A stretch of 64,000 bases of DNA. It comes from an uncultured Phycisphaerales bacterium (GTDB lineage Bacteria; Planctomycetota; Phycisphaerae; Phycisphaerales; UBA1924). Below, piece by piece: positions 59,108-60,855 of the stretch (its first letter is position 1; each line of letters begins with the position of its first letter). The notes under the pieces were generated by a model that worked only from the letters and a program-made list of their open reading frames with translations, was not told the DNA's origin and searched no databases. The stretch is from assembly GCA_937995595.1 (NCBI GenBank), contig CALKJW010000007.1:1-64000 (forward strand). The letters are read 5' to 3'. The position numbers and the translations under genes were made by a program.

Positions 59108-59518
59108 TCACTCCCCCTGCTGCTTGAGTTGCACGCTCGCCAGCGCGGTCATCGGGTCGGGTGCGAAGGTGAAGACCTTGTCCAGACCGGTCAGCATCAT
59201 CATCGACCACACCTCGTCGCCCAGCGAGCACAGCACCAGTTGCCGGCCCGCCTCGGTCAGACGCTTGCGCATCCGCAGCAGCGCGGCGATGTGCGTCGAG
59301 TTCAGGTACGACACGCCGGCGAAGTTCAGCACCACGTGCGGCACGTTGTCGGCCGGCGTCAGCGGCCGCTCGCCGCGGCTGCCCTCGCGGGCCGAGCCCA
59401 GTTCATCCTCGGCCTCCTCGCCGCGGAGTCGCGCGAAGATCGCGGCGAACTCTTCAGAGAGTTCCGGCTCGTCGGCCAGTTCGCCCAGCAGGATGCCTTC
59501 GGACCAGTCGGTGGGCAT
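59108..59518 (-). CDS. STAS-domain protein (anti-sigma factor antagonist type)
   Basis: A 136-residue protein with a C-terminal STAS domain (about 65-130): VVLNFAGVSYLNSTHIAALLRM, then LTEAGRQLVLCSLGDEVWSMMML and LDKVFTFAPDP. The phospho-acceptor position is Ser or Thr in YLNSTH. The N-terminal half is acidic and unassigned (EEFAAIFARLRGEEAEDEL). Start ATG 59518 is chosen; the longer frame reads through tRNA-Cys. It is the second STAS protein in the window. The neighbours are a tRNA and the ABC permease, so no kinase or sigma gene is adjacent. Confidence 0.85.
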   Translation of the reverse strand: MPTDWSEGILLGELADEPELSEEFAAIFARLRGEEAEDELGSAREGSRGERPLTPADNVPHVVLNFAGVSYLNSTHIAALLRMRKRLTEAGRQLVLCSLGDEVWSMMMLTGLDKVFTFAPDPMTALASVQLKQQGE

Positions 59519-59581
59519 GAGGGCCGGAGTATACAGAAACTCCGGGCCGTGCGCCGGGCCCCACCGGGTATCCACTCGCAA

Positions 59582-59662
59582 AGGCCGAGGTGGGATTCGA
59601 ACCCACGAAGCTTGCGCAACGGATTTGCAATCCGTCCCCTTAGACCGCTCGGGCACTCGGCC
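59582..59662 (-). tRNA. tRNA-Cys (anticodon GCA), enlarged variable region
   Basis: An 81-base tRNA. The acceptor GGCCGAG pairs with CTCGGCC, the discriminator is T, and the anticodon stem is ACGGA/TCCGT around TTGCAAA (anticodon GCA, Cys). The T arm is GTGGG TTCGAAT CCCAC. The D region (CCCGAGCGGTCTAAGGG) has an 11-base loop closed by CCC/GGG, as in class II tRNAs. The variable region between the anticodon stem and T stem is 12 bases (TGCGCAAGCTTC), longer than the usual 4-5. CCA is not encoded. Cys identity rests on the anticodon; the anticodon arm CGGATTGCAAATCCG equals that of typical bacterial tRNA-Cys. Confidence 0.92.
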
Positions 59663-59678
59663 GCCTTGTCAAGCACAC

Positions 59679-59707
59679 ACCGTAAGTCGTGGAGCACACC
59701 CCGTCAA
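59679..59707 (-). promoter_or_regulatory. Putative promoter of tRNA-Cys
   Basis: On the minus strand TTGACG (59707-59702) is followed after 17 bases by TACGGT (59684-59679), 17 bases upstream of the tRNA 5' end. Position and spacing fit a tRNA promoter. TTGACA also occurs at 59673-59668 but is too close to be the -35. Confidence 0.5.
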
Positions 59708-59883
59708 GCCGTGTGCGCGCCAGATTGGGGTTCCCGGCCGTTCCGGCCCGCCGCGGCGGGGTTCTCGGCCCTGCAATCGCCCACGGTGCGCGCGTCCGCG
59801 GGCCGATCGAATACCATCGACCGGCGGGGGACCTCGGCCGCGGACGCCGCCGACCTGACCCGCCCCGCACGCACGGAGGCACC

Positions 59884-60855
59884 ATGACCGTTCGCTTCAC
59901 CGCTCGTCGGATCGTGCAGGGAGTCGGTCTGGCTGTCGCGTGCAGCGTGGCCGGGCTGGCCGCGGGGGGCGAGCCGCCGCGACCGACGCAGCCGCAGCCA
60001 TCGCCGGTGCGTCCGGGGCTGCCCGGCTCGGTGCAGAACGAACTGGGGATCGAGCGCGGACCGTCGCTGGTGCGCGAGGGCTCGTTCGTGTCCTCCGCGC
60101 GCGGCGCGCTGGTGAAGGGCAGGAGCGGGCGGTGGTTCTTCGTCTTCGACCGCGACCGCCGCGGCCGGCAGATGCCCCCGATGGTCGTGCTCCCCAGCGA
60201 GCACCTGGCCGCGATGGAACGGCTGGCGGCGCGCATGAACGAGGACGAGGTGCGCCGCACCGGCGCGCGGATGCTCGTGACCGGGCAGGTCATGGCGTAC
60301 GCCGGGAACAACTACCTGCTGCCGACCGCTCCGCCCTTGGTCGACACGCCCGCACCCGAGAGCGAGCCGCGCGACGCCGAGACGCGGGCAGAGACGGCGC
60401 CCGCCGCCACCGGCGCCGGCGTGGCGGACCCCGCACAGCCCGAGCCGACGATCGAGCAGATCGTGGCGGACCTGGACAAGGCCATCGGGACCCGCCGCGC
60501 GGCCAACCCGTCGCGCCTCGCGCCCGCACCGGAGGCGGGCAGTTCGGAAGGCGGCACGCCGCGGCTCCGCCCCGCCGGGGTGCTGACGCCGCGTCGCGGC
60601 CGCGTGGTGCGGTCGGCCGCGGGCGAGCCGGTGTTCGTCGTCGACAGCGGCGCGGCGGGCGTCGTGCCCGAGCCGCCGATGGTGCTTTTGCCGTGCACCA
60701 ACCTGGCGGGGATCGAGTCGCTGGCCGAGCGTCTGGGCGAGAACGCGACGTTCACCATCAGCGGGCAGGTGCTGGTCTACAAGGATCGGAACTACCTGCT
60801 GCCGACGATGTACACCGTCAACCGCGCGGGCGACCAGGTGCTGCCGACGCAGTGA
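59884..60855 (+). CDS. Exported protein with a duplicated module
   Basis: A 323-residue protein I do not recognise. The N-terminus (MTVRFTARRIVQGVGLAVAC, then AGLAAGGE) is a signal peptide. Two copies of one module are visible: residues 64-148 (GRWFFVFD ... MPPMVVLPSEHLAAMERLA ... LVTGQVMAYAGNNYLLPT) and 229-308 (EPVFVVD ... EPPMVLLPCTNLAGIESLA ... TISGQVLVYKDRNYLLPT). Each has the order strand, PPMV(V/L)LP, helix, (V/I)(T/S)GQV, Y...NYLLPT. A Pro/Glu/Ala-rich linker joins them. The fold suggests OB-like or similar beta modules, but I cannot assign one. ATG 59884 has GGAGG upstream. It converges with nuoH, leaving 12 bases between stops. Confidence 0.78.
   Translation: MTVRFTARRIVQGVGLAVACSVAGLAAGGEPPRPTQPQPSPVRPGLPGSVQNELGIERGPSLVREGSFVSSARGALVKGRSGRWFFVFDRDRRGRQMPPMVVLPSEHLAAMERLAARMNEDEVRRTGARMLVTGQVMAYAGNNYLLPTAPPLVDTPAPESEPRDAETRAETAPAATGAGVADPAQPEPTIEQIVADLDKAIGTRRAANPSRLAPAPEAGSSEGGTPRLRPAGVLTPRRGRVVRSAAGEPVFVVDSGAAGVVPEPPMVLLPCTNLAGIESLAERLGENATFTISGQVLVYKDRNYLLPTMYTVNRAGDQVLPTQ

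Follow-up and report, generated by a model that had tools for sequence, protein, structure and literature searches.

The gene at 59582–59662 of the window—the whole stretch of 64,000 nucleotides that was analysed—raises the question of whether a tRNA-Cys can carry a long variable arm and still be the ordinary tRNA-Cys of its genome. In the excerpts of published work drawn on here, long variable arms belong to the tRNAs for Ser, Leu, bacterial Tyr, and Sec, and tRNA-Cys is counted as class I; for tRNA-Tyr, the same excerpts describe two losses of the long arm.

The gene and its variable arm

The minus strand of 59582–59662 is identified as tRNA-Cys with anticodon GCA by ARAGORN and by the Rfam covariance model RF00005 (59.0 bits at a cut-off of 29). 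Both give identical ends, and the tRNA-Cys with a 12-base variable region claimed in the earlier note is thereby placed exactly. The gene features a 7/5 acceptor/T branch and U73, and CCA is not encoded. Its stems comprise 7 bp (acceptor), 5 bp (T), 5 bp (anticodon), and 3 bp (D), the latter with G13 opposite A22. Anticodon and anticodon stem are standard for Cys, as had been noticed from the letters alone, with GCA in ACGGA-UUGCAAA-UCCGU according to both programs. Instead of the class I variable loop of 4–5 nt, the 12 bases UGCGCAAGCUUC, arranged as U-GC(GCAA)GC-UUC, separate the anticodon stem from the T stem and contain a predicted hairpin. The RF00005 alignment keeps this long region, with ten inserted bases there and two in the D loop, and yields no short-loop fold. 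The predicted minimum free energy (MFE) fold of the full RNA is a cloverleaf with a 2-bp GC(GCAA)GC hairpin (z −2.16; six of 200 shuffles fold equally well). With the length definition taken from the consulted part of PMC7609411—a variable region of at least 10 nt forming a stem—the gene belongs to structural class II. The length of the variable loop is treated here as a usual feature of tRNA-Cys and not as an identity-defining one. No match to a sigma-70 promoter or a terminator was found within 59400–59950.

Features of the tRNA-Cys gene, in coordinates of the window
Feature	Position	Strand	Basis
81-nt gene for tRNA-Cys(GCA), CCA not encoded	59582..59662	-	ARAGORN; RF00005, 59 bits; sole tRNA-Cys among 44 tRNAs
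Acceptor stem, 5' strand GGCCGAG, partner 59583–59589	59656..59662	-	RF00005 alignment, predicted fold
D arm: stem CCC/GGG, 3 bp, G13 opposite A22, loop with GG	59637..59653	-	RF00005 alignment, predicted fold
Anticodon arm ACGGA-UUGCAAA-UCCGU; anticodon GCA at 59626–59628	59619..59635	-	ARAGORN, RF00005
Long variable region UGCGCAAGCUUC, 12 nt versus 5 nt	59607..59618	-	Sequence, MFE fold, pairing in relatives
Predicted variable-arm hairpin GC(GCAA)GC, GNRA-type loop	59610..59617	-	MFE fold; covariation among relatives
T arm: stem GUGGG/CCCAC, 5 bp, loop UUCGAAU	59590..59606	-	RF00005 alignment, predicted fold
Acceptor stem, 3' strand CUCGGCC	59583..59589	-	RF00005 alignment, predicted fold
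Discriminator U73, cysteine identity base	59582..59582	-	Sequence; T in 112/112 related long loci; identity role from the consulted part of PMC9976931

The likeness of the D region to tRNA-Tyr and tRNA-Ser, also pointed out in the earlier note, is literally true. However, the D arm of the short tRNA-Cys of relatives is of the same kind (CCCAAGTGG..AAGGG), and hence the likeness is not tied to the long variable region.

The variable hairpin of this gene comprises only 2 bp and is weak evidence by itself; it is more than chance because the variable regions of relatives pair and covary. The genome set consists of the host and 60 relatives. ARAGORN on the matched loci gave tRNA-Cys in 59 of these 61 genomes; G033 has no match, and the only match in G019 is a tRNA-Tyr. 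The variable region is long (12–18 nt) in 22 of the 59 and has 5 or 6 nt in 37. A pattern scan of named genomes yielded at least 119 stretches, 105 of them with a tRNA overlapping the pattern; after 15 of other types were left out, 90 loci remained, of which 86 are Planctomycetota and one is Leptolyngbya by title, the titles of the other three being uninformative. (The contig titled Leptolyngbya sp. PLA1, L205, carries a Phycisphaerales-type tRNA-Cys identical to L162 and is likely from a misnamed or mixed genome.) Together with the 22 long forms, this makes 112 loci with 48 distinct variable regions, where one organism may occur in both sets.

Across the 112 loci, the stems of the variable arm differ yet pair—GUC/GAC, GCC/GGC, GGA/UCC, GGG/CCC, AGC/GCU, and UGC/GCA—and the loops are mostly GCAA, GAAA, or GUAA. 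In the simple register, at least two pairs form in 41 of the 48 distinct regions; most of the other seven pair if the register is shifted or a mismatch is allowed. When halves are exchanged among the 48 regions, own halves pair at 143 of 161 positions versus 1216 of 1996 for exchanged halves of equal length. In a gapless alignment of 27 distinct 83-nt sequences, 80 of 81 stem cells are paired, and all three stem pairs feature two-sided changes (17 cells). The covariation score of 0.693 compares with a shuffled mean of 0.153; none of 500 shuffles is as high, and slid versions reach at most 0.121. The bare count of pairs with a two-sided change (three) is a weak measure, matched by 47 of 500 shuffles, and kinship can beat shuffles. 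As judged by this pairing, the variable arm is a real, conserved structure, and the small GC(GCAA)GC hairpin first offered as a possibility is borne out by the MFE fold and the covarying arm of the relatives. The arm would project like that of tRNA-Tyr, with a single base ahead of the stem, loop, and stem and UUC/AUC after them, and compensatory changes would keep an existing arm foldable.

The sole tRNA-Cys and its charging

The host genome (G000; 3.1 Mb, 55 contigs, 96% complete) features 44 tRNA matches, all of which were confirmed by ARAGORN on the matched stretches (43 in L009–L048 and Thr(CGT) in L008). One of the 44 is a tRNA-Cys; the check for a second gene thus returned none besides 59582–59662 in this 96%-complete genome. 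Neither tRNA-Asn(GTT) nor tRNA-Leu(TAG) is among the 44, probably because of an assembly gap. One CysRS match was found in the host genome, with the domains PF01406 and CysS_C and the stretches CGPTVY and KMSKS. Its conserved cysteines are encoded by TGC, and two of them presumably bind zinc. This CysRS scores less than the 340 bits required by the TIGR00435 cut-off, and many genomes of the same family likewise fall short. Within family f1, many CysRS of both variable-region forms lie below this cut-off, which 33 of 60 genomes searched reach; because of these low scores in both forms, CysRS recognition may be altered.

In the part of PMC9976931 consulted, U73 and GCA are given as the basis of cysteine identity, and the unusual G15–G48 pair of E. 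coli is a strong cysteine determinant; the tRNA-Cys at 59582–59662, in contrast, has an ordinary G15–C48. All 112 related long loci carry U73 and GCA.

Class I synthetases such as CysRS approach the tRNA from the side opposite the variable arm. An ordinary CysRS would charge the long form via U73 and GCA, with no need for the variable region, and SerRS, LeuRS, and TyrRS would reject it through discriminator and anticodon—the lack of A73 and GUA keeping TyrRS away. If CysRS in this lineage is independent of the variable region, small insertions and deletions there would be tolerated for this reason. Coevolution of CysRS with the variable-region form was considered and rejected: of 755 residue tests on 59 CysRS sequences, the 25 with the largest raw differences were compared across independent pairs of the rpoB tree, and none of these residues tracks the form convincingly. 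One C-terminal residue gives p values of 0.04–1 with a median of 0.22, which is no evidence after 755 tests. The test has low power with approximately ten independent pairs; at that power, the null result fits a CysRS indifferent to the form.

The earlier note had also entertained an isoacceptor with unusual charging. A miscoding or specially charged tRNA that places, e.g., serine or leucine on Cys codons has a precedent in nematode nev-tRNAs, which carry a variable arm and receive leucine according to the excerpts of PMC4300185 and PMC4033280. For the present gene, such a role is very improbable and the suggestion finds no support: it is the sole tRNA-Cys found, carries U73 and GCA, is accompanied by one CysRS, and that CysRS has TGC at its own conserved cysteines. 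With high confidence, 59582–59662 is regarded as the normal and only tRNA-Cys gene of its genome, bearing a true variable arm of class II type, which appears and disappears in evolution, and its product would be charged by the normal CysRS. The function of the long tRNA-Cys is probably ordinary.

Distribution and switching of the variable arm

A census of 146 Phycisphaerales genomes, which overlaps the set of 61, gave exactly one match (E up to 2e-17) in 141 and none in five. By coordinates, 58 of the 141 matches are 81–87 nt long and 83 are 74–75 nt long. The families differ in composition: 25 long and 19 short in f1; 1 and 41 in f2; 1 and 0 in f3; 0 and 6 in f4; 0 and 9 in f5; and 31 and 8 in f6. 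The samples outside the order comprise 198 genomes of the class (46 re-searched) and 88 of the phylum (29 without a match at 1e-14). There, the matches listed with E below 1e-17 are 72–77 nt long by coordinates. The class and phylum searches yielded 61 loci, 58 of them tRNA-Cys; the seven long ones are all in the order (L276, L278–L280, L282, L288, and L295). Best matches of at least 81 nt outside the order, checked in 21 cases with G108, G217, and G232 left out, are 17 tRNA-Tyr and four tRNA-Ser, with no tRNA-Cys. No long tRNA-Cys outside the order was found among the planctomycete matches listed and checked in the class and phylum samples. The idea of a lineage-specific tRNA-Cys accordingly agrees with the planctomycete genomes sampled and matches listed, where the long form is confined to one order and patchy there. 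The comparison with other planctomycetes called for at the outset reveals a structure that is not phylum-wide among the genomes sampled. In three loci of family f16 of the class, outside the order (L275, L283, and L285), the variable region has an intermediate length of 8 nt, such as CATATTTC, with no evident hairpin.

Most of the genomes are fragmented assemblies, and the patchy distribution might be taken for an assembly or binning artefact from mixed genomes. However, one- or two-contig assemblies show both forms (G189, G195, and G211 long; G235 and G056 short), a single contig carries tRNA-Cys together with rpoB in G053 and G057 (long) and in G049 (short), the hairpin shows covariation, and several pairs have orthologous neighbours. 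An artefact is hence extremely improbable and already largely refuted.

On a tree of the single gene rpoB with 60 genomes (25 long and 35 short), the form changes 13 times, and at least 12 of these changes are forced by supported branches; 200 bootstrap trees give 13 changes at both the 5% and the 95% points. Since shuffled form labels average 19.4 changes, the form is clustered yet far from one clade. The CysRS tree requires 13 changes as well, with only seven forced by supported branches. With a short root, the cheapest histories of 13 steps range from five gains and eight losses to 12 gains and one loss. A single origin of the long form, with one gain and 14 losses, takes 15 steps versus 13 and is still to be reckoned with. 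Most likely, the short form is the ancestral state, from which the arm arose one or more times and was lost, or arose anew, many times.

The switch can be followed at the locus. In genus g24, G361 is short (variable region AAUUC; 74 nt), and G024, G072, G090, G103, and G350 are long. Compared with G024 and G072 (85 nt), the flanking frames of G361 are approximately 91% identical on one side and 72–81% on the other, with 74–81% for G024 on that side; the tRNAs of G361 and G024 differ only in the variable region and base 27; the flanks of G350 do not match those of G361. In genus g54, the short form of G375 stands against long forms in G057, G349, and G366. On one side of the gene, G375 and G366 have neighbours in common; for G349, a single frame matches G375, at another distance, and for G057, none does. 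With the tRNA itself masked, pairs of unlike form in family f1 have adjacent genes in common (G006/G014, G014/G018, G005/G036, and others among the best 71 pairs). Site orthology is less sure for G029/G035, G013/G011, and G017/G028, because they have just one weakly similar neighbour in common (31–36% identity). As judged by gene neighbourhood, unlike forms occupy an orthologous place in several pairs, once within a genus. Slippage or deletion at the hairpin would be the simplest cause of the switching and would fit G361.

Bases 9 and 13 tend to vary along with the arm. G9 and G13 go with the long tRNA-Cys: in ten independent pairs, on average seven point the same way, none the opposite way, and three show no difference (median p 0.016). 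The exceptions among 55 tRNA-Cys are three long ones with A9/A13, five short ones with G9/G13, and one short one with G9 alone. Among short forms with long relatives, G9/G13 is kept in G022, G025, G034, G036, G049, G361, and G375—as expected after loss of the arm—and A9/A13 is present in G007, G009, G013, G014, G026, and G029. As a general signature of class II, G9/G13 was rejected, since tRNA-Tyr, which is long in 49 of 49 genomes, has A13 in 36 of 49, and the exceptions in tRNA-Cys go both ways.

A tRNA-Tyr could have been the source of the arm, either through gene conversion or because a tRNA-Tyr copy was recruited. In searches with tRNA-Cys, tRNA-Tyr often ranks next, and its arm geometry is similar (TGGC..GCC-TTC or -TAC). 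In 49 genomes, with relatedness uncontrolled, the D region of tRNA-Cys is slightly closer to tRNA-Tyr of its own genome (0.774 versus 0.746; P 2e-4), as are bases 9 and 13 (0.663 versus 0.506; P 0.0045). In addition, an unrelated actinobacterium (a metagenome-assembled genome (MAG), G326) has a long tRNA-Cys (L183) and an own tRNA-Tyr (L431) with very similar 5' halves, possibly a Tyr-to-Cys recruitment. In Phycisphaerales, however, T stem and acceptor are no closer to the Tyr of the same genome (P 0.96 and 0.66; 49 genomes), the D arm of the short tRNA-Cys is likewise of this kind, and sequence variation in the Cys arms far exceeds that in the Tyr arms. Conversion from tRNA-Tyr leaves no signal in T stem and acceptor and a slight one, with relatedness uncontrolled, in D region and bases 9 and 13; an origin of the arm from tRNA-Tyr by either route appears improbable.

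Integrative elements offer another possible way of exchanging the arm: with the integrase crossing over within the anticodon stem of tRNA-Cys, all sequence 3' of that point, the variable region among it, would be provided by the element, and integration followed by decay would replace one form with the other at the same site. In G012, G045, G057, and G366, tRNA-Cys also occurs as detached 3' parts beginning in the anticodon arm. In G012 (G012:C50, loci L570 and L571), two copies of a 70-bp direct repeat, which begins in the anticodon arm and extends past the 3' end, enclose an integrative element of approximately 37.5 kb on a single contig, and a PF00589 phage integrase lies beside the intact tRNA-Cys; 5' halves and forms also combine in mixed ways. 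Against this, detached copy and intact gene have the same form in all four genomes, and because they agree every time, an element-supplied 3' half stays hypothetical. The short G361 retains the acceptor 3' strand of its own genus, which fits a simple deletion and not a foreign 3' half. Second copies are uncommon (three of 80 genomes by exact pattern, 13 of the 80 being without any match; the copy in G057 was found separately), and no integrase was detected in the few frames scanned beside the copies in G045, G057, and G366. Exchange by such elements is thus judged unlikely. The detached 3' parts in G045:C20 (L574), G057:C7 (L573), and G366:C193 (L572) are probably attachment sites. The most far-reaching scenario is equally doubtful: an essential single-copy tRNA would toggle between class I and class II in place many times in one order, helped by integrative elements that replace the 3' half bearing the variable arm and with core positions 9 and 13 adjusting alongside, so that class would not be fixed per amino acid.

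Long forms elsewhere and comparison with known systems

Long-armed genes with a GCA anticodon are also scattered among genomes outside Planctomycetota. Those of L119 (Mollicutes) and L167 (Gammaproteobacteria) are extra genes, since an ordinary tRNA-Cys is present as well. L213:67-151 (Anaerolineales MAG) combines GCA with A73 and a body resembling tRNA-Tyr; its genome also has a normal tRNA-Cys (L430), and L213 may be a tRNA-Tyr whose anticodon has changed. L155 (Brevibacillus reuszeri) has GCA and G73 and resembles the tRNA-Ser(GCT) of its genome with a shortened variable arm; a normal tRNA-Cys is also present. L133, L189, L208, and L218 (Chryseobacterium, Weeksellaceae) are long tRNA-Cys(GCA) genes that have U73 and a peculiar D arm common to these genomes. 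L445 (Hydrogenophaga sp. NFH-34) is a long tRNA-Cys(GCA) embedded in a closely packed array of 14 or more tRNA genes, which may lie on a mobile element. In Actinomycetes, L122, L131, L148, L188, L214, and L221 are stretches resembling the 3' half of a long-armed tRNA with a TGCAAA loop and no ARAGORN tRNA, perhaps attachment sites of integrative elements. It is possible that a long form is the sole tRNA-Cys in some other lineage.

The gene represents a genuine structural variant; the essential tRNA concerned is unusually labile in class, and its evolution is surprising. Structural class is normally fixed per amino acid; tRNA-Cys in one planctomycete order switches it repeatedly, including one switch between class I and class II inside a single genus, where the site is orthologous. 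No accompanying change in the synthetase was detected. The natural matched pairs of long and short forms lend themselves to testing what the variable region contributes to folding, charging, delivery by EF-Tu, and rejection by synthetases; the repeated switching also bears on the origin of class II tRNAs. For annotators, a long tRNA-Cys can be real. Among the titles, abstract openings, and excerpts of open-access literature consulted, no report of a long-armed 7/5 tRNA-Cys in Planctomycetota was found.

Compared with the canonical bacterial tRNA-Cys of class I, GCA, U73, and the 7/5 branch are the same, and the gene has an orthologous place in several short-form relatives; the difference is a variable region of 5–6 nt there versus 12–18 nt with a hairpin in the long form. 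Bacterial tRNA-Tyr of class II is similar in variable-arm geometry and D arm but has A73 and GUA, and its variable region is long in all 49 genomes compared. The selC* tRNA-Cys, as described in the consulted part of PMC7609411, likewise has a long variable arm together with U73 and, in most cases, GCA. Its 8/4 acceptor/T branch with bulge 51a and Sec-like form set it apart, and it serves as an isoacceptor that is sometimes accompanied by a dedicated selB* or cysS*, whereas 59582–59662 has a 7/5 branch and no bulge and is the sole tRNA-Cys found. The nematode nev-tRNAs, in the excerpts of PMC4033280 and PMC4300185, also combine a class I anticodon with a class II variable arm. In contrast to the gene described here, which is the only one found for its codons, they are eukaryotic, leucine-charged in vitro, and expressed far below canonical tRNAs.
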